From: Anaerolineaceae bacterium
Lineage (GTDB): Bacteria; Chloroflexota; Anaerolineae; Aggregatilineales; Phototrophicaceae
Assembly (NCBI GenBank): GCA_002702065.1
Contig: NZXX01000001.1
Location: 1,860,001-1,924,000 of the forward strand
Direction: 5' to 3'
DNA: 64,000 nucleotides
In this document: one piece after another, positions 35,975 through 58,747 of the stretch
Layout: the number at the start of each line of letters is the position of its first letter
Position numbering within the stretch: position 1 is the stretch's first letter
Made by a program: the position numbers and the translations under genes
Notes under the pieces: model-generated
The model's database searches: none
Told to the model about the DNA's origin: nothing
Seen by the model: only the letters and a program-made list of their open reading frames with translations

Positions 35975-36003
35975 ACTTGTAGGATATGTTAAAGTAGTAT
36001 ATA
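35975..36003 (+). promoter_or_regulatory. Promoter plus 15-bp operator shared with the GntR gene
   Basis: ACTTGTAGGATATGT (35975-35989) is identical, in reverse orientation, to 45861-45875 in the promoter of the GntR gene. A -10-like TATATA at 35998-36003 lies downstream, with TTGTAG inside the element as a possible -35 (15-bp spacer). The element would block RNA polymerase if bound. Confidence 0.55.
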
Positions 36004-36020
36004 AGCACAGGGAAAAACTT

Positions 36021-37049
36021 ATGCCTACTTATGAACCCGTTCGCTTTGCTATGGTATCACCTGCCCGCTGGGGACGGTTGCTCCTCGATTCCGTGCGCGA
36101 GTCGGATAAATTAGAACTGACAGGTGTATTCAGCCGGAATCAGGCCAACGCTCAGGCCGTAGCCGATGAATATGGGGGCCGGACTTTCAGTAGTTATGAA
36201 GCTTTACTGGATGATGACAGTATCGAAGCGGTTATGCTGCCCACGCCCCATTTTCTGCACCATCCGCAAACGATGGCAGCACTGCAAGCGGGTAAACATG
36301 TGTTTGTCGAAAAGCCGATGGCTAACACGCTGGATGAAGCGCGGGAAATGCAACAGCTGGCCCAAGAAAAAGGGCTGGTGCTGGCAGTTGGTCTACAGGG
36401 CCGACGGGGTGGCGGCATCCTGAAAGCCAAAGCGATGATCGATAATGGCGAGCTAGGGCAGGTGGTGATGGCGGTGGGCACACATGGCGCACCATTAGCC
36501 ATGAATTATACCGAAGCCGATTGGGAAACTTCTGCGGAGAAAATTCCGGGTGGACCGCTGGATAATCTGGGTGTGCATTATGCTGATGTACTGGAATTCT
36601 TGCTGGGTCCGGTCAAACGGGTTTCTGGATTTTATACGAATAAGATTACGCCATTTGATGTCATCGACGCGGGTACGGCCAATTTTGAGTTTGAAAGCGG
36701 TGCGGTTGGGGTTTATACCGTACAGCAGGTGTCGGCTTATGTTAGCCAGTTGAGTTTGTACGGCACCAAAGGCGCCCTGCACCTCAAGCGATTTGGGCAG
36801 GAACTTGAATGGCAGGATCTGGTGGATACGCAGGCGGCCAAACGTGAAGGGCCGACGCTGCGCAACATCGAGTTTGACGGTCCAAATCCGTTCACAACGG
36901 GGTTGCAGGAAGAACTGGAAGATTTGGCCGACTGCATCCGGTTGGGCGGACAGCCAAAAGTGGGCGCTGCGGAGGGAATTGCATCCCTGCGTTTGATTCG
37001 TGCCATCATGGAGTCGAATGACACGGGCAAAGCGGTAATGCTGTCATGA
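36021..37049 (+). CDS. Gfo/Idh/MocA-family oxidoreductase
   Basis: 342 residues. N-terminal Rossmann domain, with the cofactor loop degenerate (MVSPARWGRLLLDSV in place of a clear GxGxxG), HVFVEKPMANTLDEAREM (EKP motif near 95) and a C-terminal substrate domain with GPLDNLGVHYADVLEFLLG (catalytic His region). It is the first gene of a tightly packed cluster; its stop overlaps the next start as ATGA. The role is presumably oxidation or epimerisation of a sugar acid or its precursor. Confidence 0.8.
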   Translation: MPTYEPVRFAMVSPARWGRLLLDSVRESDKLELTGVFSRNQANAQAVADEYGGRTFSSYEALLDDDSIEAVMLPTPHFLHHPQTMAALQAGKHVFVEKPMANTLDEAREMQQLAQEKGLVLAVGLQGRRGGGILKAKAMIDNGELGQVVMAVGTHGAPLAMNYTEADWETSAEKIPGGPLDNLGVHYADVLEFLLGPVKRVSGFYTNKITPFDVIDAGTANFEFESGAVGVYTVQQVSAYVSQLSLYGTKGALHLKRFGQELEWQDLVDTQAAKREGPTLRNIEFDGPNPFTTGLQEELEDLADCIRLGGQPKVGAAEGIASLRLIRAIMESNDTGKAVMLS

Positions 37050-38164
37050 AGATTACAGGACTGACCGCACGCTTACTCGAGATTGATGCACGACCCCGGT
37101 TTGGGGATGAAGGTGTACCGCCGGGGCGACCCAGCGTATGGCATTATCCGCTGTTTGTGCTTCACACGGATGCGGGCATTGATGGCTATTCGATGGGGTA
37201 CGGCAATCAGGGTGATGGCAAGGCACTGGCGCATCTGGTGCGGGATGTGTATCTTGCGGAACTCCTGGGTGAGAACCCGCTGTTTGTCGAAGCGATCTGG
37301 CATAAAATCCGGCGGCGCACGCGTCACATGTATGCTTTGATGGATTCGGTGGTGGGCATCATTGACGTCGCTTTATGGGACATCGTGGGCAAGCAGATGC
37401 AGCAGCCAATCGCTATGCTGCTCGGTGCCTATCGCACGAGGGTGCCGGGTTATGCCACCGGTTACAGCTTCCACCCGACGCCGGATATTGTCTTCAAAGA
37501 AGCGAGTCAGATGAAGCAGGCCGGGTATCACGGCTATAAGCTTCATTTCTGGAATGACCCCAAAACAGACATCCCCTGTATGTATGCGGCTCGTGAAGCG
37601 GTCGGCCCCGGCTTTCCGCTGATGCAGGACCTCAACAGCAAGTACAACCTGACTCAGGCATTGGAAGCAGGCCGTGTGCTGGATGAACTCAACTTCTACT
37701 GGTTTGAGGAACCCATCCCCGAACGACAGATGGCGAATGTGCGCAAGCTGGCCGATGAACTGAAGACGCCCATATTAGGTGGGGAAACGCTGCGGCTGGA
37801 TGAAATGGCGGAACATATCCGTTACGGGGCGTTTGACATTGCGCGCGGCGACGTTTATTCAAAAGCAGGCATTACTGGCCTGTATAAGACGTATGCCATG
37901 TGCGAGTTGTTTGGCCTCAACCTGGAGGTACATACGATGGCAACGCCGCTGCTGGATGTGGCGAATTTGCATGTGGCGTGTGCGGTTCAAAATGGTGAGT
38001 TTATGGAAATTATTCATCCGGTTTATCGATTTGGCATGGTTGGCAATCCGCTGGACATTGATGCCGACGGTTATTTACACATGCCGCAAGGGCCCGGCCT
38101 CGGTATCGAACTCGACTGGGATTGGATTGAAGACCATACCATTGAGGTCATCACCGGCCCTTAG
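37046..38164 (+). CDS. Enolase-superfamily acid-sugar dehydratase (mandelate racemase subgroup)
   Basis: 372 residues. Metal ligands D195, E221 or E222 and E247; His-Asp dyad H296 (EVHTMATP) and D269 (RGDVYSKAG), as in mandelate racemase-type enzymes. The second-strand motif is Lys-x-His (K165-x-H167) where most sugar dehydratases have Lys-x-Lys. Members dehydrate aldonic, uronic or aldaric acids to 2-keto-3-deoxy acids. Coupled to the oxidoreductase upstream and followed by a sulfatase 13 bases later. Confidence 0.82.
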   Translation: MKITGLTARLLEIDARPRFGDEGVPPGRPSVWHYPLFVLHTDAGIDGYSMGYGNQGDGKALAHLVRDVYLAELLGENPLFVEAIWHKIRRRTRHMYALMDSVVGIIDVALWDIVGKQMQQPIAMLLGAYRTRVPGYATGYSFHPTPDIVFKEASQMKQAGYHGYKLHFWNDPKTDIPCMYAAREAVGPGFPLMQDLNSKYNLTQALEAGRVLDELNFYWFEEPIPERQMANVRKLADELKTPILGGETLRLDEMAEHIRYGAFDIARGDVYSKAGITGLYKTYAMCELFGLNLEVHTMATPLLDVANLHVACAVQNGEFMEIIHPVYRFGMVGNPLDIDADGYLHMPQGPGLGIELDWDWIEDHTIEVITGP

Positions 38165-38174
38165 AAAAGGAATT

Positions 38175-39581
38175 ATGATGGCAGATCAACCCAATATACT
38201 TGTTGTTCTTTCAGATCAGCATGCACCCATGTACAGCGGCCCGTATGGCCACCCGATTGTCCAGACACCGAATATGGATCGTCTGGCGCGTGAAGGCGCT
38301 GTTTTTGAGAATGCTTACTGCAACTCGCCTATCTGTGTGCCTTCGCGCATGACGTTGATGAGTGGGCTTCACCTGCATCACAGTGGCATCTGGGACAATG
38401 GCGTGCCTTTACCCTCGGACACGGTGACATGGGCCCATTATGCGCGGGCCGCCGGTTACGACGCGGTGCTGGCCGGTAAAATGCACTTTCGCGGGCTGGA
38501 TCAGCTGCACGGTTTCAGGGAGCAGCTGGCGTACGACATCAACGCACAGAATCTACCCAAAATCCCCAATTGGGCCGCGCCACCACCGGTTCGTGAGACC
38601 CCCTGGCGCGAGATTCGGGCGGAAGCCGGGTCATCCAAAGAGATTGTCGCGGACGACGCGGTGGCCGAGGCAGCTCTGCAATATCTGCGCGACCCCGCCA
38701 TAAAGGCGCAACCCTGGGCGCTGGTGGCCGGGTTTGTCGCTCCACATCCCCCTTTTGTTGTTCCACAGCGTTATATGGATATGTACCCGCCCGATGAGAT
38801 GGATTTGCCGGACGTGCCTGCCGGGCATATGGCGGACCTGCATCCGGCATACCAGCGCATTTTGCAGTGGCGCGGGCTGGTGGAAGGTGGCATCAGCGAA
38901 GCAAATATCCGCCGCGCACGGTCGGTGTACTATGGGCTGGTGACGTATCTGGACGACAAGATCGGTCAGTTGATCACGGCACTGGAGGAAACGGGTCAAT
39001 ACGACAACACCATCATCATCTATCTGAGCGATCATGGCGAGATGCTCGGCGAGCATGGCCTGTGGTACAAATGCAATTTTTACGAACAGTCCGTGCGTAT
39101 CCCGCTGATTATCGCTGGCCCTGGCATGCCTCAGAACCAGCGTATTCCGCAGGTTGCTTCAACGGTTGATGTCACCGCTACGTTGCTTGATTTGTTAAAC
39201 GCTGACGTCTTCAGTCCACTGGATGGCGAGAGTTTACTGCCGCTGCTTCGGGGGGAGGCTGATGGCTGGAAAGATGAAGCCATTTCGGAGTTTTATGCGG
39301 ATGGCAGCACAAGACCGTGGGCGATGCTGCGGCAGGGGCGCTATAAGTATGTTTACAGCCACAACGATCCGCTAGAGCTTTATGATCTGGAAGATGACCC
39401 CGGCGAGTTCCGCAATCTGGCAGCGGACCCGGCGCAGCAGCCTGTGCTTGAGCGCATGACGAACAGCTTGCTCTCGCGCTGGAACCCGGATGAAATCGAC
39501 CGGCGTATTCAACAGAGCCAGCGCGAACGAACGCTGATTTATGATGATCTGTTTCGCTATTTGCTGGAGCCAACCTCATGA
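38175..39581 (+). CDS. Type I sulfatase (cytoplasmic)
   Basis: 468 residues, alkaline-phosphatase fold. The formylglycine motif is ICVPSR (C54), with VLSDQHA (metal-binding D14) and SDHGEMLGEHGLWYK downstream. There is no signal peptide, so it should desulfate sugars inside the cell. AAAAGG precedes the ATG pair at 38175-38180. The open frame starting at 37779 is only overlap with the dehydratase gene. No sulfatase-maturing enzyme is encoded in the window. Confidence 0.88.
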   Translation: MMADQPNILVVLSDQHAPMYSGPYGHPIVQTPNMDRLAREGAVFENAYCNSPICVPSRMTLMSGLHLHHSGIWDNGVPLPSDTVTWAHYARAAGYDAVLAGKMHFRGLDQLHGFREQLAYDINAQNLPKIPNWAAPPPVRETPWREIRAEAGSSKEIVADDAVAEAALQYLRDPAIKAQPWALVAGFVAPHPPFVVPQRYMDMYPPDEMDLPDVPAGHMADLHPAYQRILQWRGLVEGGISEANIRRARSVYYGLVTYLDDKIGQLITALEETGQYDNTIIIYLSDHGEMLGEHGLWYKCNFYEQSVRIPLIIAGPGMPQNQRIPQVASTVDVTATLLDLLNADVFSPLDGESLLPLLRGEADGWKDEAISEFYADGSTRPWAMLRQGRYKYVYSHNDPLELYDLEDDPGEFRNLAADPAQQPVLERMTNSLLSRWNPDEIDRRIQQSQRERTLIYDDLFRYLLEPTS

Positions 39582-40999
39582 CCATCAAGCTGGCCGATGA
39601 TGGATTGAACGACGCAGTCCTGTTTGCCTTTGACGAGCAGGCGTTTCCGTTTCGTAATCACGTACAGATTCACCTGATACCGGGGCAAAAAGCGCAGATG
39701 GTGCTGCCACCCGGTCCGCCCGGCACGCATGACGAGGCTGTGTTGTATTACGGCACGGTGCTGCGCATCGGTGACACGTTTCATATGTGGTATTTCGGCA
39801 GTTATGGGGCGCAGCGCGAGGGTATCGGTCATGGGCATGGCCGACCCAGCAGCGTGTTGTGCTACGCCACCAGCGCCGATGGTATTCAGTGGGACCGGCC
39901 TGAACTTGGCCTTGTTGAATTTAATGGTTCGCGGCAGAACAACATTGTTGATCTGCCTGATCCGGGTTTGCGCCCGGCAGCGGCTATCCTGTATGAACCG
40001 GAAGATTCCGAGCGTCCCTATAAGCTGGCCTACGAAGCGACGGTCGACGGGCAGGCCCGGTTCTGCGTGGCTTTCAGCCGGGATGGGCTGCGCTGGCAGC
40101 CGTACGAAGCGAACCCGGTTGGGCCGTTTCTGGAAATGGCAGGTGTGACCCGATTTGATGGGATGTACTATGTGGTCGGGCAGGGGCCGCTGACGGCACA
40201 TCGCCCGCAGCGCGCACGCCAGTTGATGGTCTTCGCCTCCAAGGATTTTGAGTATTGGTCGCCATGTGGTGCCGTTGGGCTGGACCGCAGCCCCGACTTG
40301 ACCGGACCATCGGTTGAAACCAACTGGAATCACATTGAGGAAATTCATCTTGGGGCGGGTCTGTGGAACCGGGGAAATGTGATCCTCGGCATTTATGGGC
40401 AGTGGCATGGGCATTATTCCGGTGATCGCCGTTTTTTGACGATGGATCTGGGGCTGGCTATCTCGCACGACGCGATTCACTTTACCGAGCCGATTCCCGG
40501 TTTTGCGCTGATCCCCGCCCGTGAACAACCCGGCAGCCCGGCAGGCGAGTTTCCGGCGCTGATGCAGGGGCAGGGCATGGAAAATGTGGGGGATGAGACG
40601 TACTACTGGTATTCGCTGTGGAAAGGTACGAGTGGAACCGGCGTCCGGATGGTGAAATGGACGCGGGACCGGCTGGGTTCGCTGATTCCGTTTGCGCCGA
40701 AAGGTGCCCGCGTGCTTACCTGCCCGGTTGATATTGAGGGTGCGGCGCGCTTGTACGTGAATGCCAGCGGATTGGGCGAGTACAGTTCGCTGCAAATAAG
40801 CGTGCTGGACGAGGGGTTTCGACCTGTGCCGGGTTATGCGCCTGTCACGATTGATGAGGATGGCTTACGAGCACCTGTTCAATGGCCGGACCACGATGTC
40901 ATCGCTGAAGGTCGATTCCGAATAGAAGTCCAGTTCAGCGGCATTCGCCCCGAAGATTGCCATTTGCACGCCTTGTATTTGGAGCGCGTGTTGTCATGA
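39578..40999 (+). CDS. GH32/43-like five-bladed propeller protein with C-terminal beta domain
   Basis: 473 residues. The repeats (FHMWYFGSYG, VLCYATSADGIQWDRPELG, FCVAFSRDGLRWQPYE, MYYVVGQG, TYYWYSLWKG) are typical of glycoside-hydrolase-like five-bladed propellers, followed by a beta-sandwich from about residue 380. I do not recognise an assigned CAZy family or a clear catalytic triad. It overlaps the sulfatase (ATGA) and is a distant paralogue of the protein at 41877. No signal peptide. Probably an intracellular glycosidase for a desulfated oligosaccharide. Confidence 0.65.
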   Translation: MTIKLADDGLNDAVLFAFDEQAFPFRNHVQIHLIPGQKAQMVLPPGPPGTHDEAVLYYGTVLRIGDTFHMWYFGSYGAQREGIGHGHGRPSSVLCYATSADGIQWDRPELGLVEFNGSRQNNIVDLPDPGLRPAAAILYEPEDSERPYKLAYEATVDGQARFCVAFSRDGLRWQPYEANPVGPFLEMAGVTRFDGMYYVVGQGPLTAHRPQRARQLMVFASKDFEYWSPCGAVGLDRSPDLTGPSVETNWNHIEEIHLGAGLWNRGNVILGIYGQWHGHYSGDRRFLTMDLGLAISHDAIHFTEPIPGFALIPAREQPGSPAGEFPALMQGQGMENVGDETYYWYSLWKGTSGTGVRMVKWTRDRLGSLIPFAPKGARVLTCPVDIEGAARLYVNASGLGEYSSLQISVLDEGFRPVPGYAPVTIDEDGLRAPVQWPDHDVIAEGRFRIEVQFSGIRPEDCHLHALYLERVLS

Positions 41000-41880
41000 G
41001 AAAACAGACACTTGGGCGAACCGGGCTGGTTGTAACGGAATTGGGGTATGGCACCGGCCAGTTACGCGGGGACCGTATCTGGAATGGGCGATCAATCCAG
41101 CCGGAGCAGGCGGGGCGAATGCTCAACATGGTGCTGGACTCTGGCATCAACTTTATTGACACGGCGAATGTCTATGGCCGTGCCGAAGATTATATTGGCC
41201 AGTTTATCAGCCAGCGGCGATCGGAATATTATCTGGCGACCAAGTGCGGCTGCCAGTTGGTGAATATGGGCGATCATGACGAAACCCCGCGTAACTGGAC
41301 CCGCGCCCACCTGGAAGAGTCGATACATAACAGCCTGAAACGCATGAAGACGGACTACGTGGACCTGCTGCAATTTCATAATCCCACGTTTGATGACCTC
41401 GAAAAATATGATCTGGTGCGCGTCATGGAAGATGCACGCCGCGCGGGAAAAACGCGATTTGTCGGCATCTCGACGACGGTGCCGGATTTACCGCGCATAC
41501 GGGCACTCGGCGTATTTGATGTCTTCCAGATTCCGTATTCGGCGCTCGAACGGGAGCATGAGGCGTGGCTTCAAACCGTAGCTGATGCCCATATCGGCAC
41601 CATCATTCGCGGTGGTGTTGCGAAAGGGGCACCGGCTAAAACCGGGTCGGATTTGTGGGAGCATGCCCGGCTGGATGACCTGCTGGATGGGATGTCGCGC
41701 ATGGATTTTATGCTGCGGTTCACCCTCAGCCATCCTGCTGCCCACACCACCATTGTCGCGACCATCAATCCGGATCATTTGCAGGATAACCTCGCGGCGG
41801 CTGAAAAAGGACCGCTGCCCATAGAAACCTATGAAGAAGCCAAGCGGCGTCTCTCGCAGGCCGAACAGGAGCTTACATGA
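40996..41880 (+). CDS. Aldo/keto reductase
   Basis: 294 residues. The AKR catalytic tetrad is complete: D55 and Y60 (DTANVYG), K83 (ATKCG) and H128 (LLQFHNP). The domain matches the YajO/Tas-like group that reduces sugar aldehydes and ketones with NADPH. It is coupled by ATGA overlaps on both sides (40996 and 41877), placing it inside the propeller-propeller cluster. Confidence 0.85.
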   Translation: MRKQTLGRTGLVVTELGYGTGQLRGDRIWNGRSIQPEQAGRMLNMVLDSGINFIDTANVYGRAEDYIGQFISQRRSEYYLATKCGCQLVNMGDHDETPRNWTRAHLEESIHNSLKRMKTDYVDLLQFHNPTFDDLEKYDLVRVMEDARRAGKTRFVGISTTVPDLPRIRALGVFDVFQIPYSALEREHEAWLQTVADAHIGTIIRGGVAKGAPAKTGSDLWEHARLDDLLDGMSRMDFMLRFTLSHPAAHTTIVATINPDHLQDNLAAAEKGPLPIETYEEAKRRLSQAEQELT

Positions 41881-43313
41881 AATTACTCTTCTTTGATCCG
41901 TACCATCTCGAATCGTGGCGCAATGTCACGTTTGAGGCGCACCAGCCGGTGAAGGACGAATCGCCGGTTCTCGTGCCGGAACACCCCTGGGAAGCGTGGC
42001 GTGCTTTTCCAATATCGAACTGCGTGATGCGCGATGACGCTGGTTTTCGGATGTGGTACGAAACGGGCTATGATGAACGCTCGGTACCTGGTGATCGACT
42101 GAACCGGACGGCCTATGCCACTTCGGCAGACGGTATCCACTGGGAAAAGCCGGCGTTGGGCCAGTATGATTTTAAAGGCTCGACCGACAATAATATTCTG
42201 AATTTGGGGCCGTTTGGTGTGCATAACGTCAGTGTCGTGCACGATGACCATGACGGCAACCCGAACCGGCGCTACAAGATGACGTACTTTGCTATGCCGC
42301 CGCGCAAGAACTTCAGCCCGATACCGCCGGGGATCAATGTGGCTGTTTCGGAGGATGGGGTACGCTGGAAACTGGCCTGCCCGATGGAGGAACCAGCTTT
42401 TCGAGCATGGCGTGATGTCGTGCCGGGGCGACCCACGTCCAGTGACACCCACTCGCTGGTGGGTTGGATACCGGAGCGTCAGCGTTATGTCATCATGGCG
42501 CGTAATGTGTCGCTGGTGCCCTACATGTTTCGGACGATTGGTTACAGTGAGAGTGCGGATTTCATGCACTGGTCGGAACCGATCAATGTGCTGTCGCCAG
42601 ATGAACATGATCCCTGGGGGACTGAATTTTACTATATGACTGTGTGCCGGTATGAAGACCTGTATCTGGGTCACTTGTGTGTGTTTCATAACTACAGCCG
42701 CCGCCTGACTGCTGGTCGACCGGATACGGCGCAGGTGCCGCCGGAACTGGCCTATATGAATCAGCGGTTGGATATGAAGCTGGTTTACAGCCGTGATTTG
42801 CAGGTCTGGCGGTATGCCGACGCTGACCGGGGCGCATTTCTGCCAGTGGGTGAGTCGGGTGCATGGGATAGCGGGATGGTCTTTGGCAGTTCGATACTGC
42901 CGGTGGATGATGAAGTATGGGTTTATTATGGCGGTACGCCAATGCGTCATATCGTCGAGGATTTGCAGCACGCTGGTTCGGATGCACACCACCGGATGTG
43001 CGGGGGGCTGGCCCGGATGCGGCGCGACGGGTTTGTCAGTTTGCGGGCTGGCACAGAGCCGGGTGAATTTGTGTCCCGGCCCTATGAGCTGACGAATGAG
43101 GCGTTAACCCTGAACTCGCATACGTGGGACGATGGCGAGATCAGTATTCAGGTGCTCGATGCCGAATCCGATACCCCGCGCAGTGCAGTGGTGACTGTGC
43201 GTGGTGATGATGTGCGGATGCCGGTCGACTTTGATCTGGCCGCCTTGTACGGTCAGAAGGTCCGGCTGCGCGTGACGGCCCGCAATGCGGACCTTTATGC
43301 AATTGACCTTTAG
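41877..43313 (+). CDS. GH32/43-like five-bladed propeller protein, paralogue
   Basis: 478 residues with the same architecture as 39578-40999: FRMWYETGYDE, AYATSADGIHWEKPALGQYD, NNILNLGPF, INVAVSEDGVRWKLA, MKLVYSRDLQVWRYA, VWVYYGG, and a C-terminal beta-sandwich (ISIQVLDAE onward). No signal peptide and no recognised family assignment. The last gene of the cluster; its stop lies 8 bases from the convergent propeller gene with no terminator between. Confidence 0.65.
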   Translation: MKLLFFDPYHLESWRNVTFEAHQPVKDESPVLVPEHPWEAWRAFPISNCVMRDDAGFRMWYETGYDERSVPGDRLNRTAYATSADGIHWEKPALGQYDFKGSTDNNILNLGPFGVHNVSVVHDDHDGNPNRRYKMTYFAMPPRKNFSPIPPGINVAVSEDGVRWKLACPMEEPAFRAWRDVVPGRPTSSDTHSLVGWIPERQRYVIMARNVSLVPYMFRTIGYSESADFMHWSEPINVLSPDEHDPWGTEFYYMTVCRYEDLYLGHLCVFHNYSRRLTAGRPDTAQVPPELAYMNQRLDMKLVYSRDLQVWRYADADRGAFLPVGESGAWDSGMVFGSSILPVDDEVWVYYGGTPMRHIVEDLQHAGSDAHHRMCGGLARMRRDGFVSLRAGTEPGEFVSRPYELTNEALTLNSHTWDDGEISIQVLDAESDTPRSAVVTVRGDDVRMPVDFDLAALYGQKVRLRVTARNADLYAIDL

Positions 43314-43321
43314 GCAGCGAG

Positions 43322-44197
43322 TCAGGTGATCGTTTGCCGGGTGACGCTGCCATCGTGTTTCCCCAGCAATATGGCACCAGACCCATTCAACCGTGCGAGA
43401 GCAGTTGCGCCGCTGGTTTGGCTCTGCTCTCGCCATGTATCGCCGTTATCATCCGACACATACACGACATCATCTGCCAGCACGATCAGAGATTGTGAAC
43501 TCGCAGCGGGCAGAACAGCGTTGATCGCGCCGGATAGGGCATTTTGACCGATCTGAACCCACGAATCGAGAGTGGGGGATGCCTGGTACAGGCCTTGCGT
43601 TTCTGTGCCGACGAGTACGCTGCCATCTGCCCGGTACGCCACGCTCAGGACAGGGGGCAGGTTTTCCGGAAAATCAAGCCACTGCCACGACTGACCCTGA
43701 TTGCTGCTGTGATACAGGCCGGTTTCTGTACCAGCCAGCAGTGACGAAAAATCCGCATTGGCTGCCAGACAGAGAATGCGCCGGTCGAGCAGGCCAAAGT
43801 TCCAGGGCTGCCATGAACTGCCACCATCGGTGGTGCGGTAAATGCCATCATCCAATGTGCTGAGAATGACGGTTCCATCCTGTTCGAAATCTGGCGAAAA
43901 GAGGATAGCCGATACGGCTGACGGCGGTTCTGGCAGGCGAAACGCTGCCCATGTTTGCCCGCCGTCGTCGGAGCGCATGATGCCACCGACCACGCCGGCA
44001 AAGAGTGTTTGATCCTGCGTGTAATTTGGCGACAGGGCAACCGACAGCGTTGGTAAGGATGTGTCCAGTTCCAGCGTGTCGTAAACAGATTCCCACGAAT
44101 CATCCTGCTGGCGAAACAATCCCACTTGTGTGGCCAGATAGATAGCATCATGAGAAGCTGCGATGGCGTAGATCGCCTCAAAATTTTGGTCTGACAT
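43322..44197 (-). CDS. Ycf48/BNR-type beta-propeller protein
   Basis: 291 residues with regular propeller repeats: GGIMRSDDGGQTWAAF, DGIYRTTDGGSSWQPW, TGLYHSSNQGQSWQWL, QGLYQASPTLDSWVQI and VVYVSDDNGDTWREQ, each with an Asp-box-like turn. There is no signal peptide, catalytic motif or membrane helix, so it is probably a binding or scaffold propeller like Ycf48 or sortilin-type proteins. It lies 20 bases downstream of the chaperonin-like gene in the same direction. A functional partnership is inferred only from that pairing. Confidence 0.7.
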   Translation of the reverse strand: MSDQNFEAIYAIAASHDAIYLATQVGLFRQQDDSWESVYDTLELDTSLPTLSVALSPNYTQDQTLFAGVVGGIMRSDDGGQTWAAFRLPEPPSAVSAILFSPDFEQDGTVILSTLDDGIYRTTDGGSSWQPWNFGLLDRRILCLAANADFSSLLAGTETGLYHSSNQGQSWQWLDFPENLPPVLSVAYRADGSVLVGTETQGLYQASPTLDSWVQIGQNALSGAINAVLPAASSQSLIVLADDVVYVSDDNGDTWREQSQTSGATALARLNGSGAILLGKHDGSVTRQTIT

Positions 44198-44217
44198 ATA
44201 AAAAATCCAATCAAGTG

Positions 44218-45822
44218 TTATGGCGCAGTAGACTGCGGTGGCTGGCGTTGTTGTATGAGCACGTCCGTTGTCAGGGCCAGCGCTGCGCTGGTGATGGCGG
44301 TGCGGGCAGCGGCTTTAATCACCATTGCACTGTCCAGGATGCCCGCTTCTTTCATGTTGACGATCTTTCCACGTACCACGTCAAAACCCTCACCGGAACC
44401 ATTGATCTGCGCGAGAATCTCGCCGGGGTCATAGCCCGCGTTTTCCAGAATAGCTTGGGCAGGGGCACGCAGCGCCCGGCAAAGAATTCGATTGGCCGCT
44501 ATGGCCTCGGGGGTGTTGCCGTGTGTACCCTGAAGCTTTTGCTGGCAGGCGAGAAGCGCCGTACCACCGCCCGGCAGCGCTCCCTCCAGCAACGCCCCAC
44601 GCAGGCCAGCGGCGGTGCGTTCGGCGAGGTCTTTGCGCATGGTGCTTTCGGCTTTGGTGATGCCCGCGACCCGCAGAACGGCAGAACCACCCAGCAGGCG
44701 GCCAACTCGTCGCTGAATATCCTTGCGTTCATCCAGATCAGTGGAGGTGTGATAGATCCGTTGCAGACGCTCGATCTGCTGGCGCAGCACCGGGACATCG
44801 CCCTGGCCGCCAACGACGCCGAAGTATTCGCTGTCCGCCCAGGCACGCCGGGCATGGCCCAGATCCTCCCATTGGACAGTATGAAGAGAATCGCCAGCTG
44901 CCTGAATGAGTGGCCGACCGCCGACCAGAAACGCCAGGTCTTGCAGGTTGCTAGCTTGATCCGCAGCTTTTGACCCCAGCGGCTTGACGGCGATGATGTC
45001 AAAACGACCGGGCTTTTCGTTATTGATAATCAACGCTTTGATCTGATCCGAAATTTTCTTTGCGATGATGACCAGGCCATTGACGTCGTCACGGACGGCC
45101 AAGCGCATCAACGGAACCAGATCATGTGGATCCTGGATTTCAAGATCGCTGATGAGGACTGCTGCGTGGGTGAGGGTGCGGCGATCCAGCAGTTTGTCGC
45201 GGATCATCTGGTCCGAAAAAACGCCGCTTTTCCAATAGGTTCCATCCACATAATGGTGTTCGTAACCGCGTGCCCGGCCCGTGCGAATGTCCAGTTGACC
45301 AAAAGGCCCGATGACATCGAGAATCTCGCCCAGGCTGGCCGCCATCTCGGGTACCTGCGAAGTGGCTTCGGCCAGACGCGCAATATCGGTCCGGGTTTTG
45401 ACGGGCAGAGTCATTGCATCGAGCATATCGAGAATGACATTGAGGCCCTGTTCGAGTTCACGCCGCAACTGCATGGCGTTGCCACCGGCTGCCAGATAGC
45501 GCAGACCTTCGTTATAAACTGTCTGGAATATGATCGCGGCGGTGGCGGTACCGTCGCCGGTGTTTTCGTGCAAGCGCCACAATAAATGCCGGATCCACAT
45601 GGCTCCCGCGTTATCCGACCGGTCCGGCAGTTCGATGATGCGGCGCGCAATAACGCCGCCATTGTCGAGGATCTCCGGTGCCTGGCCGGGAAAATTGCGT
45701 TCGATGCTGACGTTGCGGGACAGCGGCCCTAGCGTCGGGGTCACGGCGTCCACGATCTGATTGATGCCGCGCTGAAAGGCGTTCTGGACGTCCGGTTGAA
45801 AGATAATTGCCGGTTTTGGCAT
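44218..45822 (-). CDS. Divergent GroEL-like chaperonin (Cpn60 family), probably ATPase-impaired
   Basis: 534 residues aligning end to end with GroEL: TPTLGPLSRNVSIE (GroEL TLGPKGRNV), NTGDGTATAAI (D90, equal to GroEL D87), LEDLG-like WEDLGHARR, LLEGALPGGGTALL, and KEAGILDS (GroEL D495 region). Three points differ: the Lys of GPKGRN is Leu, the D52 position reads Asn-Gly-Gly, and the GroEL D398 position is R402, so ATP hydrolysis should be weak or absent. The C-terminal GGM tail is missing. It is not accompanied by groES. GGAG precedes the ATG. Possibly a specialised scaffold or holdase working with the propeller downstream. Confidence 0.85.
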   Translation of the reverse strand: MPKPAIIFQPDVQNAFQRGINQIVDAVTPTLGPLSRNVSIERNFPGQAPEILDNGGVIARRIIELPDRSDNAGAMWIRHLLWRLHENTGDGTATAAIIFQTVYNEGLRYLAAGGNAMQLRRELEQGLNVILDMLDAMTLPVKTRTDIARLAEATSQVPEMAASLGEILDVIGPFGQLDIRTGRARGYEHHYVDGTYWKSGVFSDQMIRDKLLDRRTLTHAAVLISDLEIQDPHDLVPLMRLAVRDDVNGLVIIAKKISDQIKALIINNEKPGRFDIIAVKPLGSKAADQASNLQDLAFLVGGRPLIQAAGDSLHTVQWEDLGHARRAWADSEYFGVVGGQGDVPVLRQQIERLQRIYHTSTDLDERKDIQRRVGRLLGGSAVLRVAGITKAESTMRKDLAERTAAGLRGALLEGALPGGGTALLACQQKLQGTHGNTPEAIAANRILCRALRAPAQAILENAGYDPGEILAQINGSGEGFDVVRGKIVNMKEAGILDSAMVIKAAARTAITSAALALTTDVLIQQRQPPQSTAP

Positions 45823-45855
45823 GAAAATTTACTCCAAAAAAACTTGCATGTCTTG

Positions 45856-45884
45856 TTGACACATATCCTACAAGTGGATATTAT
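45856..45884 (+). promoter_or_regulatory. GntR-gene promoter containing the shared 15-bp operator
   Basis: TTGACA at 45856-45861, a 17-bp spacer and TATTAT at 45879-45884. ACATATCCTACAAGT (45861-45875) fills the spacer and is the reverse complement of 35975-35989. Binding there would repress the regulator gene and possibly the divergent chaperonin operon. Confidence 0.65.
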
Positions 45885-45918
45885 AGTGCTAAATTGCTGG
45901 GTGTCACCAGGTGATTGT

Positions 45919-46668
45919 ATGAACAACAAGGATTTTCAGCCGCTACAACGTCCTCCATCGCTACCCGAGACGGTTCAAACTGCCATTCGAAACTTCATTG
46001 CAGATAATAACCTAAGAACAGGCGATGCGCTCCCCCCGGAAACACAGTTAACGAAGCAGCTTGGGGTCAGCCGTAACGCCATTCGGGAAGCCGTAAAATC
46101 GCTCGAAATGGTTGGCATCGTCGAGGTGAGGCGCGGCAGCGGTTTGTTTGTGGGGGATTTCTCGCTGGATCCACTGCTGGATAACCTGCCTTATGGCCTG
46201 ATGTCTGATTTACAGGAACTGCGTGAATTGCTGGAGATTCGCCAGATTCTTGAAGTGGGCATGATGGATCGGGTCATTGCCCAGCGTACCGACGACCAGA
46301 TTAGCGGCTTAAAGCGGGTGGCTGATCAGATGCGCGTGCGCGCGGAACAAGGGAAACCGTTCCCGAATGAAGACCGCAAATTTCACCTGCTTCTCCTTGA
46401 AAACACGGACAATCGAACCTTGCTGAAACTGCTGGACATCTTCTGGCAGACCTATAATCGCGCGTCCCGGCTGGATGAAATTGAAGATTATGATCCGATG
46501 AAAACCTACCAGGATCATGCGGTGATTGTTCAGGCTGTGGAAGCGGGCGATGTTGACGGCGCGCGGCGGGCCTTGGAGCAGCATTACACGGGGTTGGGGT
46601 CATTGCAATTCCGGCTTCATAAGGTCAGCAATACCCAATTCAACGATCAAAATGACGGAACAAAATAA
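45919..46668 (+). CDS. GntR-family regulator, FadR/FCD subgroup
   Basis: 249 residues. N-terminal winged helix (LPPETQLTKQLGVSRNAIREAVKSLEMVGIVEVRRGSGLFV) and an all-helical FCD effector domain (ELRELLEIRQILEVGMMDRVI, EDRKFHLLLLENTDN, QDHAVIVQAVEAGDVDGARRALEQHY) with metal-binding His positions. FCD regulators usually sense sugar acids or other carboxylates. The ATG at 45919 lies 28 bases after the likely transcription start. The shared operator suggests it represses itself and the acid-sugar cluster at 36021; it may also affect the sulfatase cluster directly downstream. Confidence 0.85.
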   Translation: MNNKDFQPLQRPPSLPETVQTAIRNFIADNNLRTGDALPPETQLTKQLGVSRNAIREAVKSLEMVGIVEVRRGSGLFVGDFSLDPLLDNLPYGLMSDLQELRELLEIRQILEVGMMDRVIAQRTDDQISGLKRVADQMRVRAEQGKPFPNEDRKFHLLLLENTDNRTLLKLLDIFWQTYNRASRLDEIEDYDPMKTYQDHAVIVQAVEAGDVDGARRALEQHYTGLGSLQFRLHKVSNTQFNDQNDGTK

Positions 46669-46710
46669 GCCAAGCACCTTATTGAAATATTCTTTTAGGA
46701 ATACACGCGC

Positions 46711-48048
46711 ATGCGGAACTTACTGATAATCATGGTTGATGAGATGCGGTCGGATATTGCCTATCACGAGGCATATGAGTATGTCCGCACGCCGCATATT
46801 GATCGGTTGCGGGCTGAAGGAATCACGTGCCGCAACGCATTCTCTGTATATCCCATCTGTGGTCCTTCGCGCGCATCCATTATGACAGGGCGCTATCCAA
46901 AGCAGATCGGCGTGCTGACGAACACCTGCCTGCTGCCGCCAGAAGAACGGACGATTGGGCATCATCTGCGGGACTGTGGTTATGAAACGGTCGCGTTTGG
47001 TAAAACACATGGTCAGAACCCTGGTTTTCGTGTGTTTCGAGAGCCATCTCATGCCGCGCATCTGGGCACTGATTCGGGTGGCTGGAACAATGCCGATGGC
47101 ACACCTCTGGTGGGCGAATTGCCGGGTGAAACGGACAACCATTTCGATTTTGTGTTGACCAATGAGGTTGAAAAATACCTGAACAAACGCGATGAGTCGC
47201 AGCCTCTGGCGATGTACGTGGGCTTTCATACGCCGCATCCACCCTTTTACATGCCTCAAGAATTTTATGAGCTTTACGACCCGGCGGAGATCGACCCGCC
47301 ATCCGAGGATGAAGCCATTTTTGCGACCAAACCCCAGGTTCAGCACAAAATGGCGAAGTCGACTCGCTATCTCTATTACGATCATGTCACGCGTCAGAAA
47401 GTGATTGCGGCGTATCTGGCACAGATTACGATGGTTGATGTGGCGATTGGTCGCTTGCTGGCGTCGTTTGAGCAACGCGGCTTGCTGGATAACACGGTTG
47501 TCGTGTTTATCTCGGATCATGGCGAACAGCTGGGTCAGCACAATATGCTGGGCAAACAGAATAACTTTTATGAGGGGTCGCTGCGGTCGCCCCTGGTGTT
47601 TCGGCTGCCGGACCAGGCGCATGCCGGTACAGACATCACGACACTGATTGAGTTTGTGGATGTGGTGCCGACGATTTGTGATGCTCTGGGCGTGTGTACG
47701 CCTTACAACGTTGCTGGCAAGAGTTTTCAACCGGCATTTGAGGACTCGTCTTATGTGCACCGGGACTACGTGCACAGCATGTCCGTGGAACACCGGGCTA
47801 TCCCCGATACCAATGAAGATTTCACACGCGGCGAGATGGTGCGTACCAACCGCTGGAAGCTGGCTGTATATACCGATGGGGACGGCGAACTCTATGATCT
47901 GGAAACCGACCCGGATGAGTGCGTCAACCGTTTTCAGGACCCCGAACTGGCAAGTATAAAAATCGAGCTGCTGGAAGAGATGGTGAAACATCAATTGCAG
48001 TATACCCGCGATGCAACCCTGTGGGGATCGAACCGATTTCGTGGTTAG
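46711..48048 (+). CDS. Type I sulfatase (cytoplasmic)
   Basis: 445 residues. N-terminal LLIIMVDEMRSD (metal ligand D10), formylglycine motif ICGPSR (C50), HTPHPPFYMP and ISDHGEQLGQHNMLGKQNNFYEGS. No signal peptide. A TAGGAA sequence precedes the ATG. It opens the second glycan cluster, 42 bases after the GntR gene, and may be transcribed from the GntR promoter. Substrate unknown. Confidence 0.88.
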   Translation: MRNLLIIMVDEMRSDIAYHEAYEYVRTPHIDRLRAEGITCRNAFSVYPICGPSRASIMTGRYPKQIGVLTNTCLLPPEERTIGHHLRDCGYETVAFGKTHGQNPGFRVFREPSHAAHLGTDSGGWNNADGTPLVGELPGETDNHFDFVLTNEVEKYLNKRDESQPLAMYVGFHTPHPPFYMPQEFYELYDPAEIDPPSEDEAIFATKPQVQHKMAKSTRYLYYDHVTRQKVIAAYLAQITMVDVAIGRLLASFEQRGLLDNTVVVFISDHGEQLGQHNMLGKQNNFYEGSLRSPLVFRLPDQAHAGTDITTLIEFVDVVPTICDALGVCTPYNVAGKSFQPAFEDSSYVHRDYVHSMSVEHRAIPDTNEDFTRGEMVRTNRWKLAVYTDGDGELYDLETDPDECVNRFQDPELASIKIELLEEMVKHQLQYTRDATLWGSNRFRG

Positions 48049-48109
48049 TTGTTTGCGGTCGCATGGCAGACCTGAACATTTTCGGAAATAGTGCTAATGA
48101 GGAGAACTT

Positions 48110-49672
48110 ATGAGCAAGTCATCAAAGGTAAGCTTGTCCCGCCGCGACTTCCTGCGGTCGACCGGAACAGCCGCAGTACTGGCTGCTGTCCCTGGCGTGG
48201 CAATGGTGGCGGCGCAGGATAGCCCGGATGAAATTCCGCGTGTTCTGGAAGAAGTTACTTTTCTTTCCGGTTCACCCTTTCCTCCGCCCACGCCACGCGA
48301 TCAGAACACCTACTGGCAGGAAATCGAGAGCAGACTGGGTGTTCGGATCAATTTCCAACTGGTGCCGCGCAGTGACTATGACGCGTTGCTCGGTACAACA
48401 CTTGCTTCCGGTGACCTGCCGGACGCGTTGGGGGGTGGCCCCGGTGACCCGCTGATCCGTCAGGCGCTGCTGGACGGCGCGTTTGTCTGGCTGGATGATT
48501 TTGGTTTCCCCGGTGACTATCGCGGGCTGGATGGTTTCGCTGAAGTATCGGAAGCCGGATGGCGCAACAGTGCTTTTAATGGCCGCGTGAATGGCGTGCC
48601 GACCGGGTCGCATGATTTTGATGATGGCTCGTTCATTCGCACTGACTGGCTGGAAGCGACCGGCATGGAGAAACCCACCACGCTGGAAGAACTGACCGCG
48701 CTGATGCAGGCATTTGCCGAGAATGACCCGGATGGCAACGGCAATAACGACACATTCGCTTATTCAATTGCTTCGGCAAGCAGCCGTCATGATGATGGTG
48801 GTGGTTGGCGTGCGTTCACAGATGCATTCGGTATTCCGAATAACTGGGAATTGCAGGACGATGGGACGCTGCTGCACAAAGACGTCCATGAAACGACCCG
48901 CGCGGCCACCGAACACATGCGTTCTCTGGTCAGCCTGGGAATCTTCAATCCCGATTTCCTGAGCCTGAACAGCAACCAGGCCAATGAAGAATTCGCGTCC
49001 GGTATCTCCGGTGGTCTGGTACATAACCTGGCATCGGGCTACGACCTGTGGGGCGCGCGCGTGCGGGAACTGATCGACGGGGCGGACGTCACCCCGATTG
49101 ATCCAGTCACCACCGAAGGCTTTGAACGGGCGAACTGGCTGCGGCCTGAATTCAACACCGTTACTCAAATCCGCTTTGATTATGCGGACGACGAAGACCG
49201 GCTGTGGGACCTGTTGCGGATCATTCACTTCTGGTTCGACCCGGCAACCAAAGACTTTGTCAACTTCGGGTTCGAGGGTGAGCACCATATCGTGACCGAG
49301 AGTGGCGCGCTGGAACAGACCGAGAAGGGCAGTCAGGATATTGCCTGGATCCGGGCATGGAACCCACGTCACGTGAACAAGCAGGTGGATGCGCCATATG
49401 TCGGTCCTGAAACATTCGAACAGATCACCGAGGATACGGCCCGCCTGAAACAATGGGGTTTGCCTGACCCAACATGGGGTCTTTTCCCGGAACTGGGTTT
49501 CGAAGACCCGTCCGCAACCCTGTCGGATTTCGCCAACAATACGATTGGTCGTATGGTGGTGGGCGAACAGTCGATGGACGAGTGGGACACCTACGTCGAG
49601 GAATGGTACAACCGGGGTGGACGCCTGCTCACCGATACAATGACAGCACTTTACCAGCAGTTCAAAGGTTAA
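48110..49672 (+). CDS. ABC sugar-binding protein (family 1, LplA/YtcQ type) with Tat leader
   Basis: 520 residues. The N-terminus LSRRDFLRSTGTAAVLAAVP is a good twin-arginine signal, with cleavage near VAAQD. The mature fold is that of large LplA-like binding proteins for complex oligosaccharides. NDPDGNGNNDTFAY is a calcium-type loop at the position usual in this family. GAGGAG precedes the ATG. With the sulfatases and sialidases around it, the ligand may be a sulfated or sialylated glycan fragment. Confidence 0.85.
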   Translation: MSKSSKVSLSRRDFLRSTGTAAVLAAVPGVAMVAAQDSPDEIPRVLEEVTFLSGSPFPPPTPRDQNTYWQEIESRLGVRINFQLVPRSDYDALLGTTLASGDLPDALGGGPGDPLIRQALLDGAFVWLDDFGFPGDYRGLDGFAEVSEAGWRNSAFNGRVNGVPTGSHDFDDGSFIRTDWLEATGMEKPTTLEELTALMQAFAENDPDGNGNNDTFAYSIASASSRHDDGGGWRAFTDAFGIPNNWELQDDGTLLHKDVHETTRAATEHMRSLVSLGIFNPDFLSLNSNQANEEFASGISGGLVHNLASGYDLWGARVRELIDGADVTPIDPVTTEGFERANWLRPEFNTVTQIRFDYADDEDRLWDLLRIIHFWFDPATKDFVNFGFEGEHHIVTESGALEQTEKGSQDIAWIRAWNPRHVNKQVDAPYVGPETFEQITEDTARLKQWGLPDPTWGLFPELGFEDPSATLSDFANNTIGRMVVGEQSMDEWDTYVEEWYNRGGRLLTDTMTALYQQFKG

Positions 49673-49693
49673 GTGTGAGACAGCAATACGTTC

Positions 49694-49716
49694 GCAGGGG
49701 GTGCGCAGCCCCCTGC
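49694..49716 (+). terminator. Stem-loop between binding-protein and permease genes
   Basis: Perfect 8-bp stem (GCAGGGGG 49694-49701, CCCCCTGC 49709-49716) with a 7-base loop, 22 nt after the binding-protein stop, followed by only ATTT. Probably a partial terminator or mRNA 3' stabiliser. Confidence 0.6.
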
Positions 49717-49754
49717 ATTTGCGCCTGCCCGGTTGAGGCGATGAGGTTTTGACT

Positions 49755-50723
49755 ATGATCGATAGTGATTATCGGGTGCAAGGCAATCAACAACGACTTG
49801 CACGCCTGGCAGCGATCCTGCCCCGCCAGACGATCGCGCAAATCTGGAAGCACCGGTGGATTTATATACTGCTGGCGCCGGGGCTGCTGTATTTTGTGAT
49901 TTACGTTTACTGGCCGATGTGGGGCAACCTGATTGCGTTTCAGGATTTTAGCCCGTTTCGTGGTTTTTCTGGCAGCCCGTGGGTCGGCCTGAAGCATTTC
50001 CAGGCGCTGTTTACCGACCCGGATATACCGCGTGTGCTGGTAAACACGCTGGTGCTAAGCGGCCTGCAAATTATTCTGGCATTTCCGGTGCCCATTGTGT
50101 TGGCACTGCTGCTCAATGAAGTGCGCAGCGAGATCTACAAGCGAACCATTCAGAGCATTATCTACCTGCCACATTTTATTTCGTGGGTGGTGATTGTTGG
50201 TATCTGGTATCAGATGTTCGGGTCGCGCGGACTGATGAATCAGGTTCTAGGCGAGTTTGGTGTCGAGCCGATCAGTTTTCTGACGGACCCATTCTGGTTT
50301 CGCCTAAATTTTGTTGCTCAGAATATCTGGAAGAGTTCAGGGTGGGGCACCATTATCTTTCTGGCAGCGCTGACCAGCATTGACCAGGAACAATATGAAG
50401 CGGCTGCGATTGATGGGGCTTCGCGCTGGCAGCGGATGCGCTTCATTACCCTGCCCGGTATACGTCCCGTTATCCTGATTGTTCTGATTATCCAGCTTGG
50501 CAACGTGCTGAATCTCGGTTTTGAACATATCTTTCTGCTGCTCAACCCGGTCACCGAACCCTATGCGCAGGTGCTGGATACCTTTGTCTATACGCGCGGT
50601 ATTCAACGCGGCAACTTCTCGTTTGCGACTGCCGTCGGGCTGGCAAAAGGTGTGGTCGGCATGGGTATGGTGATGACGGCGAACTGGTTGGCCAAACGCT
50701 TTGGTGATGGGGGGATCTTCTGA
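49755..50723 (+). CDS. Sugar ABC permease, LplB type
   Basis: 322 residues: a basic N-terminal tail (about 25 residues), then six membrane helices. The HRWIYILLAPGLLYFVIYVYWPMWG start and the EAAAIDGASRWQRMRFITLP docking loop are typical of LplB/YteP permeases that partner large binding proteins. ATG 49755 is preferred over TTG 49749 because GAGG lies eight bases upstream. The next gene starts within its stop codon (TGATG). Confidence 0.88.
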   Translation: MIDSDYRVQGNQQRLARLAAILPRQTIAQIWKHRWIYILLAPGLLYFVIYVYWPMWGNLIAFQDFSPFRGFSGSPWVGLKHFQALFTDPDIPRVLVNTLVLSGLQIILAFPVPIVLALLLNEVRSEIYKRTIQSIIYLPHFISWVVIVGIWYQMFGSRGLMNQVLGEFGVEPISFLTDPFWFRLNFVAQNIWKSSGWGTIIFLAALTSIDQEQYEAAAIDGASRWQRMRFITLPGIRPVILIVLIIQLGNVLNLGFEHIFLLLNPVTEPYAQVLDTFVYTRGIQRGNFSFATAVGLAKGVVGMGMVMTANWLAKRFGDGGIF

Positions 50724-51586
50724 TGCTGCATGTAAATAATCGCGGGAATCGAATTGCAGATACGATCATCCATGTGTCGCTGCTGGTGGTCGCCATGTTC
50801 ATGCTGTTCCCCTTCATTTATGTCCTGCTTGGCAGTTTCACCTCGTTTCAGGACTTTGCAGGCGGCGGCGTGATTGTCATCCCGAAAGAACCATCGCTGG
50901 AAGCCTACCGTTATGTGCTGTCCAGCCCATCCCTGATGCAGTCGATTGGGGTGTCGATGTTTCTGGCGTCTGTGGGCACGCTCATCAAACTGGCGATGAC
51001 GGCGACGATGGCCTACGCGCTGGCCAGCAAGCATCTGGTGTTCCGACGTTTTTTCCTGCTGATGGTGCTGATCCCGATGTTGTTCTGGCCGGGCATCATC
51101 CCCAGATTTCTGGTCGTGCGTGAAACCGGTCTGTTGAACACGCTATGGGCGTTGATCTTCCCCTCGGCAATCGACGCTTTTTATCTGCTGGTGATGCGCA
51201 ACTTCTTTATGGACTTGCCCATTGAACTGTTCGAATCGGCGGAGCTGGACGGGGCTAACGACCTGACGATTTTTACGCGTATTGTACTGCCGCTTTCGAA
51301 GCCTATTCTGGCGGCTATCGGCCTGTTCTATGCCGTGCTGCAATGGAACCTGTATTTCGCCGCCATTTTGTATATTCGAACGCCGGAATTGTGGCCGGTG
51401 CAGGTGCTGCTGCGGCAAATCCTGATATTGGGCGAGGGCAATAATATCGAAGCAGACGTCGTGGCCCCGGCGTTTTCGATGCAGATGGCAACGGTAATGG
51501 TGGCGACAGTCCCGATCATCATTTTGTATCCCTTCTTGCAGCGCTACTTTGTCAAAGGCGTGCTGACCGGGGCGATCAAAGGTTGA
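50723..51586 (+). CDS. Sugar ABC permease, LplC/YtcP type
   Basis: 287 residues, six membrane helices, with MFPFIYVLLGSFTSFQDFAGGG after helix 1 and the docking loop ESAELDGANDLTIFTRIVLP. It completes the importer with the LplB-type protein. Both ends overlap neighbours through TGATG junctions, so the importer and the sulfatase downstream are translationally coupled. Confidence 0.88.
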   Translation: MLHVNNRGNRIADTIIHVSLLVVAMFMLFPFIYVLLGSFTSFQDFAGGGVIVIPKEPSLEAYRYVLSSPSLMQSIGVSMFLASVGTLIKLAMTATMAYALASKHLVFRRFFLLMVLIPMLFWPGIIPRFLVVRETGLLNTLWALIFPSAIDAFYLLVMRNFFMDLPIELFESAELDGANDLTIFTRIVLPLSKPILAAIGLFYAVLQWNLYFAAILYIRTPELWPVQVLLRQILILGEGNNIEADVVAPAFSMQMATVMVATVPIIILYPFLQRYFVKGVLTGAIKG

Positions 51587-53061: not shown

Positions 53062-53127
53062 CGAATATGCGCCTGTGGCTGCGGGCTATCGCCATGATTT
53101 TGTGAATAGATTTAAGCGAGATGATTC

Positions 53128-54258: not shown

Positions 54259-54281
54259 CTGACACAGGAGCAATAGATTTC

Positions 54282-55349: not shown

Positions 55350-56113
55350 TGCGTCCGAACCGCATGAAACACAAACTGGCTGCCGGGGAGATGGTGCTTG
55401 GCCCCAATTTGCAGATTGATCATCCCTGGTTGGTGGAGATGATCGGGCTGGCTGGTTTTGATTTTGTCATGCTGGATGCGGAACATGGGCTGGCCCTGAA
55501 CAATCTGCCTGCGTTGATTGGAGCGGCGGACGCGGCAGACATTCCGGCGATTGTGCGCGTGCCCGATCATAGCCGTGCCTATCTCAACTGGGCGCTGGAA
55601 GCCGGGGCTGGCGGTGTACAGGTGCCGATGGTGGATACCCCGGATCAGGCGGCGGCGCTGGTACGTGAAACAAAGTTTGCGCCAGTCGGGGCACGCGGTT
55701 TTTCAAATGCGACACGGGCGGCTGATTTTGGCCGGATTGATGCGCTGGATTATGCCGAAATTGCCAACCGCGAAGTGCTGTTGTGTGTTCAGCTCGAAAC
55801 CAAAACTTCGCTGGAAAACGCGCAGGAGATTGCGCAGGTTGCGGGTGTCGATATGGTGTTTATTGGCCCGGCGGATCTGGCGCAGTCGTTGGGGTATCCC
55901 GGTCAATCGAAAGCGCCGCCGGTTATCGACGCAATCGTTCGTGTAGTCAATACATTACATAATCATATGCCTGTGGGCATTTCTGCATTCTCTGCGGAGG
56001 ACGTGCGCTTCTGGAAGGCACACGGGGTGCGCAGTATTCTGACGTCGAGTATGCATCCCATCCGGCAGGCATTCGAACAGTTACATTCTGATCTGAAAAG
56101 TGGATTGCAATAG
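55349..56113 (+). CDS. HpcH/HpaI-family aldolase
   Basis: 254 residues, TIM-barrel class II aldolase. Catalytic H46 (LDAEHG) and metal ligands in CVQLETKTSLEN and FIGPADLAQSLG are present. Members cleave 2-keto-3-deoxy acids (for example 2-keto-3-deoxy-L-rhamnonate or 4-hydroxy-2-oxo acids) to pyruvate and an aldehyde. The ATG at 55349 overlaps the upstream stop. It probably carries out the final cleavage step of the sugar-acid route encoded here. Confidence 0.85.
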   Translation: MRPNRMKHKLAAGEMVLGPNLQIDHPWLVEMIGLAGFDFVMLDAEHGLALNNLPALIGAADAADIPAIVRVPDHSRAYLNWALEAGAGGVQVPMVDTPDQAAALVRETKFAPVGARGFSNATRAADFGRIDALDYAEIANREVLLCVQLETKTSLENAQEIAQVAGVDMVFIGPADLAQSLGYPGQSKAPPVIDAIVRVVNTLHNHMPVGISAFSAEDVRFWKAHGVRSILTSSMHPIRQAFEQLHSDLKSGLQ

Positions 56114-56120
56114 AGGTTAA

Positions 56121-57602: not shown

Positions 57603-57603
57603 A

Positions 57604-58716: not shown

Positions 58717-58747
58717 TGACCAGGCAGATTTCTTAAAAGGACGATTG

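Follow-up and report, generated by a model that had tools for sequence, protein, structure and literature searches.

The 64,000-nucleotide stretch of an Anaerolineaceae bacterium genome analysed here (assembly GCA_002702065.1, contig NZXX01000001.1, positions 1,860,001 to 1,924,000; hereafter the window) carries a 15-base word, ACTTGTAGGATATGT, in two copies, one on the forward strand at 35975-35989 and the other on the reverse strand at 45861-45875. The copies lie 10 kb apart, each in a separate gene-control region; they had been described as identical and reverse-complementary in an earlier reading of the letters (the sequence-only reading), and we found them to be exactly so. We regard the 15-mer as the predicted operator of an FCD-type GntR regulator (probability of about 0.83). 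This protein, the product of 45919-46668, would repress the likely operon of 12 genes that begins with its own gene, an operon headed by a Gfo/Idh dehydrogenase gene and, probably, a divergent chaperonin gene until a sugar-acid-like ligand releases it. The presence of the word in two control regions, together with the recurrence of its core before related regulator genes elsewhere, suggests that a single repressor probably binds there and would turn a region for the breakdown of sulfated sugars on and off. The features of the locus are as follows.

35975-35989, forward strand: putative operator copy 1, ACTTGTAGGATATGT, in non-coding DNA upstream of the Gfo/Idh operon
36021-43313, forward strand: genes for a Gfo/Idh dehydrogenase, a mandelate-racemase-type dehydratase, a sulfatase, an unknown protein, an aldo/keto reductase and another unknown protein, in overlapping frames
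43322-44197, reverse strand: BNR/YCF48-like propeller gene, behind the chaperonin gene
44218-45822, reverse strand: divergent GroEL-type chaperonin gene, 38 bases from copy 2
45856-45884, forward strand: gntR promoter-like match, TTGACA (45856-45861), 17 bases, TATTAT (45879-45884); 11 of 12 positions, spacer filled by copy 2
45861-45875, reverse strand: putative operator copy 2, the exact reverse complement of copy 1, in the gntR promoter spacer and just 3' of the -10 box of the divergent chaperonin promoter
45880-45907, reverse strand: divergent promoter-like match facing the chaperonin gene, GTGACA, 16 bases, TATAAT; 11 of 12 positions
45919-46668, forward strand: FCD (FadR-subfamily) GntR regulator, 249 amino acids, with a helix-turn-helix (HTH) and a ligand domain carrying D152, H156, H200 and H222
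46711-59473, forward strand: eleven genes behind gntR, for a sulfatase, a likely solute-binding protein (below the Pfam cut-off), two ABC permeases, a sulfatase, two BNR proteins, an HpcH/HpaI aldolase, an FAD oxidoreductase, a BNR protein and an RraA-like protein

Rarity of the repeated word

The window holds 16 distinct pairs of exact repeats of at least 15 bases, against a mean of 5.45 under a first-order Markov null, and ACTTGTAGGATATGT is the sole pair with both copies wholly non-coding, as judged from a hand-compiled list of genes based on the open frames, by which 94% of the window is coding. Across the whole genome (6.77 Mb) the word occurs exactly twice, both times in the window, with about 0.013 exact copies expected from base count alone (two strands, 4^15). 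There is no place with one mismatch and there are four with two mismatches, none of which contains the exact core TGTAGGATA; one of the four (L099) lies inside an open frame. When up to three mismatches are allowed, no excess over the reversed-pattern control is seen (38 forward and 38 reverse matches versus 49 and 49). In view of the genome-wide rarity of the word and the conservation described below, a chance repeat was rejected.

The degenerate pattern YTGTAGGATAY is found four times in the same genome versus once for its reversed control. Of its two extra matches, one falls within a long open frame (L118) and the other (L117, G000:C7:984849-984859) in a non-coding stretch. The latter reads CTGTAGGATAC, stands in a region without long frames about 25 bases upstream of the ATG of a short frame, and is a possible third site in this genome.

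Conservation upstream of orthologous regulator genes

A search of 98 family genomes turned up the exact 15-mer four times, in three genomes: the two window copies and one copy upstream of a gntR ortholog in each of two others (G050 and G057). The pattern YTGTAGGATAYNTGYNAA is found at eight places in six genomes and its reversed control at none; one match (G073) is inside a gene, and we discarded it as a chance occurrence.

A broader comparison took in 60 FCD homologs among the matches listed, each with 300 bases of upstream DNA; the window's own gene was set aside, and two loci (L054 and L082) were dropped for having less than 100 bases there. The exact core TGTAGGATA precedes 16 of the 26 gntR orthologs, defined by at least 41% identity, versus none of the 31 more distant FCD homologs; when the cut is placed at 43%, the counts are 15/24 and 1/33. 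The core-bearing orthologs are spread over other genera and families of the class. Fourteen class-level orthologs with at least 43% identity were first seen after the motif had been defined, and seven of these possess the exact core, two a variant differing by one or two bases, and five neither. Two fragments are included in the 26 orthologs (L065 with the core, L129 without it). The sequence-only reading had named lack of conservation upstream of orthologous genes as refuting its proposal; the gntR comparison does not refute it.

Variants of the core occur before four of the remaining orthologs (TATAGGATA in L061 and L179, TGTATGATA in L129, and TGTCTGATA in L167), while none was found in the 300 bases upstream of each of L172-L176 and L184. 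Since loose variants also precede some distant FCD homologs, they count little and were left out of the totals given above.

Two paralogs with 39-40% identity (L046 and L062) lack the core and have in common an upstream palindrome-like stretch, ACATCAGAYGTCTGACT, which suggests a different operator. Upstream of a gntR homolog with 38% identity (L063), GCCTGTAGAATGTCCTACAGGC is composed of two inverted sites that overlap and have TGTAGGACA as the variant of the core; this variant is also present in L125 (a gntR homolog, 38%). The L063/L125 element is a putative operator of a related but more symmetric kind.

Promoter setting and symmetry of the site

A promoter scan of 35.7-47 kb returned 11 matches in all versus a shuffle mean of 7.9. 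Its two best matches, with 11 of 12 positions each, belong to gntR and the divergent chaperonin gene, and the next best has 9 of 12. Copy 2 lies between these two promoters, filling the TTGACA/TATTAT spacer of gntR and facing the chaperonin gene, precisely as had been read from the sequence. It is a single site, placed about midway in the 96 bases that separate the two divergent genes, its centre being 51 bases from the gntR start and 46 bases from the chaperonin start; this fits the single site midway in the intergenic gap that is reported for FadR-subfamily divergons (PMC4494728).

The setting was compared over 25 tabled sites, for which possession of the core had in part been the ground of selection. 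A -35 box (TTGAC or TTGC) lies at most nine bases before the core at 22 of the 25, and the extended -10 position often holds a G (read as C in motif orientation, column -2, at 14 of 16 sites). These regularities, the fixed place of the core behind the -35 box and the frequent extended -10 G, speak for the word being a part of the core promoter (a sigma-factor contact or an extended -10 element) that was kept by common descent of the gntR promoter. We consider this explanation highly improbable. YTGTAGGATAY is found just four times in its own genome, with only one of the two further copies in non-coding DNA, and is therefore no general promoter part; the core also recurs at promoters of genes other than gntR and stands reversed at copy 1. 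Moreover, promoter spacers do not normally keep their bases between genes that encode proteins of 45% identity.

The partial dyad of the word, already noted in the sequence-only reading, comprises 4 of 7 pairs when counted by eye. The left half, TTGT, and the three-base centre fit the palindromic FadR-subfamily operator consensus TKGT-N3-ACMA given in PMC4494728. Dyads with this centre and five of seven pairs, AGCTGTAGAATAGCT and ACCTGTAGAATAGGT, are visible by eye in two of 17 distant control homologs (L077 and L081), which gives some support for the same site centre in the 15-mer.

At 9 of the 25 sites, including copy 2 and excluding copy 1, an inverted GGATA box stands 2-4 bases past the core and some 10 bases away from the centre of the site. 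It resembles the extra half-site boxes described near GntR operators at 7-12 bases (PMC4494728), and is possibly an extra half-site, but here it overlaps the -10 region and is lacking at copy 1; because of this overlap, promoter constraint may explain part of its frequency. A larger dyad, TATCC-N7-GGATA, was considered as the true operator and is present in copy 2, but was rejected, as the GGATA box occurs at only nine of the 25 sites.

According to PMC4494728, regulators with Arg at HTH position 28 have sites with a G/C pair at positions 6/14. This position (FadR Arg-35) corresponds to Thr42 in the window's regulator, as mapped by eye from the row for position 27 (Glu-34) in Table 1 of that source. 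The core-bearing orthologs lack Arg there and the site has A/T pairs at 6/14, a weak indication, since many core-less homologs lack this Arg as well. Asn53 (HTH position 39) agrees with the A at site position 9 and disagrees with the G at position 11.

The regulator and its putative targets

The N-terminal part of the regulator is a GntR winged helix-turn-helix (PF00392, 3.1e-16, 59.2 bits versus a cut-off of 27) and the C-terminal part is an FCD ligand domain (PF07729, 2.4e-25, 89.8 bits versus a cut-off of 24.3), which places it in the FadR subfamily. Its ligand domain has the pattern D-x3-H, H, H (D152, H156, H200, H222), the metal-ligand set of many FCD domains (as in TM0439); of the 26 orthologs, 24 have the same four residues, and the remaining two are fragments that do not extend to these positions. 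NCBIfam scores are far below the cut-offs for NanR (103 versus 260 bits), LldR (90 versus 311) and UxuR (78 versus 442). Five named organisms appear among the 120 listed of the 401 relatives of the regulator: Chloroflexia, Caldilineaceae twice, Thermomicrobiales and Trueperaceae. The first three of these groups belong to Chloroflexota, and the named relatives are thus mostly Chloroflexota metagenome-assembled genomes (four of the five named, among the matches listed).

The twelve genes at 45919-59473 all point the same way, no more than 76 bases separate any two neighbours, and two sulfatase and three BNR-protein genes are among them. Promoter-like matches within 46711-59473 are at shuffle level, the best on the forward strand having 10 of 12 positions (58462-58491). 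It is likely that gntR and the 11 genes behind it form one operon, a point that the sequence-only reading had not raised, and copy 2 may control all twelve. The genes at 36021-43313 are likewise likely to be one operon behind copy 1. A propeller protein, which the sequence-only reading had placed in this Gfo/Idh cluster, finds no support from Pfam or NCBIfam at their cut-offs within 39578-43313: the frames 39578-40999 and 41877-43313 have zero Pfam matches and an NCBIfam trace of beta-1,2-mannobiose phosphorylase far under the cut-off.

Sites in other genomes stand before Gfo/Idh genes (G021, G072 and G414) and 2-hydroxyacid dehydrogenase genes (G025, G005 and G414), with a single site in G414 flanked by genes of both types. 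Further sites precede an FAD oxidoreductase gene (G027) and an amidohydrolase gene followed by one for an HpcH aldolase (G025), and in G422 a site is shared by gntR and a divergent amidohydrolase gene. Three of these target types, Gfo/Idh, HpcH/HpaI aldolase and FAD oxidoreductase, are also present in the window around gntR, and the others were not seen there; this region holds in addition a mandelate-racemase-type dehydratase, sulfatases, BNR proteins and a transporter.

Weighing the proposed regulon

A number of observations weigh against the proposed repressor or against its reach, and the first of them concern the site. The exact core TGTAGGATA is missing upstream of 10 of the 26 orthologs, and four of these (L172, L173, L175 and L176, from one genus) have the same recognition helix, SRNSVREA, as orthologs that do carry the core. 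For the ortholog comparison the P value (9e-8) is nominal, because the 41% cut was set after the data had been seen and the orthologs are related; likewise, the invariance of the core is overstated, because the 25 tabled sites were partly selected by it. At 23 of these sites at least four of the six bases of TATAAT follow within 18 bases behind the core, by a loose test without a null. The right half of the site, ATAT, departs from the ACMA of the FadR-subfamily consensus (PMC4494728), and we therefore refrain from classing the site as a canonical FadR palindrome. Two targets elsewhere, DUF455 (G050) and AP_endonuc_2 (G053), have no obvious fit to a sugar-acid pathway. The core-less orthologs and the divergent right half would be accounted for if another transcription factor, and not the neighbouring GntR, read the element and happened to control the same genes. 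However, the core accompanies orthologs of gntR in different families of the class and none of the 31 more distant FCD homologs has it upstream, one of the only two exact copies in the genome lies directly upstream of this gntR, and the lack of Arg at position 28 in core-bearing orthologs agrees, if weakly, with the A/T pairs at 6/14 (PMC4494728). Such a factor is accordingly rated as quite improbable.

The second group of objections concerns copy 1. It has no TTGAC or TTGC box (the other exceptions being L100 and L194), and its promoter is poor, being absent from the scan list and reaching 8 of 12 positions with the best hexamers found by eye. Placed by the sequence-only reading in a core promoter, the copy is non-coding and ends 31 bases upstream of the Gfo/Idh ATG (36021). 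Copy 1 is also the only site reversed relative to the one gene it precedes, which argues against the core as a mere promoter part, yet leaves this the less certain copy. No orthologue of the Gfo/Idh gene (E<=1e-80) was found in 395 other genomes. The poor promoter setting and the missing orthologue favour the idea that copy 2 is a true autoregulatory operator and copy 1 a chance match, with no two-operon regulon. We consider this unlikely, given the expectation of about 0.013 exact copies per genome and the place of copy 1 only 10 kb away, in non-coding DNA and before a gene of the Gfo/Idh type, which adjoins the site in three other genomes.

The third group concerns the chaperonin gene, a divergent GroEL gene whose product has its best solved relatives at about 250 bits and which has matches (E<=1e-80) in 48 of the 98 family genomes, its own included, with up to five per genome. 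At 29 other chaperonin loci (L137-L165; best matches, one per genome, 3-4.7 kb each) the core is found in none. The chaperonin gene is therefore not a conserved member of the regulon, a possibility that we rejected on this count, and the operator link seems local to its own genome, where position is what connects the gene to the regulator. A homolog of the neighbouring propeller gene is present at 25 of the 29 loci, and sugar ABC permease homologs stand beside 14; from this arrangement, chaperonin and propeller look like a module accompanying sugar transport genes in its own right. It is tentatively suggested, and rather doubtful, that a sugar-acid repressor switches a GroEL-type chaperonin and its partner propeller through an operator shared with gntR, so that a substrate-induced, pathway-dedicated chaperonin would fold the sulfatases and propeller enzymes of the region.

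Taken over its parts, the view of the sequence-only reading that one regulator governs itself, the acid-sugar cluster and perhaps the chaperonin operon finds support as regards the regulator and the operon to which its gene belongs (core before 16/26 orthologs versus 0/31) and is likely for the Gfo/Idh operon; the chaperonin part is not backed by conservation. The core also precedes genes of sugar-acid or hydroxy-acid type elsewhere.

Proposed mechanism and its significance

In the mechanism that we infer, a dimer of the regulator would sit on the 15-mer in the promoter spacer. When bound at copy 2, it would keep RNA polymerase from transcribing gntR and the following genes as far as 59473; transcription of the Gfo/Idh operon, and probably of the chaperonin gene too, would be blocked in the same manner. 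A sugar-acid-like ligand would lower the affinity of the repressor for its site and free the promoters. Regulation of this type is of a known, ordinary bacterial kind and is well supported. No earlier report of this regulon was found in searches of one open-access library.

The proposal connects a regulator, through its predicted operator, with as many as three operons in a region for the breakdown of sulfated sugars. It also provides a promoter motif for tracing the regulon across the class, namely TTGACA or TTGCA closely followed by TATCCTACA. In addition, the locus allows one to ask whether the divergent GroEL-type chaperonin answers a catabolic signal rather than stress.

Comparison with known systems

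NanR, the sialic-acid repressor of E. coli, is the best NCBIfam match of the regulator and its second-best solved relative (6on4), and BNR (sialidase-like) genes lie nearby. However, the NanR score remains at 103 bits versus the cut-off of 260, and the site described here is no direct repeat of TGGTATAW, the element that NanR reads in direct repeats according to PMC4494728. A Pfam scan of 40 frames of the window showed no sialic-acid lyase or kinase family.

The closest known systems are the FadR/FCD GntR regulators of sugar-acid and hydroxy-acid metabolism (DgoR, ExuR, LldR and UxuR). The window's site differs from theirs in its right half, ATAT in place of ACMA, in its asymmetric core and in the lack of Arg at HTH position 28 of the regulator (PMC4494728). 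With these regulators it shares the single mid-gap site and the left half TTGT with the three-base centre of TKGT-N3-ACMA, and the protein shares with them the combination of a GntR HTH and an FCD domain, as well as a gene position adjoining the likely targets.

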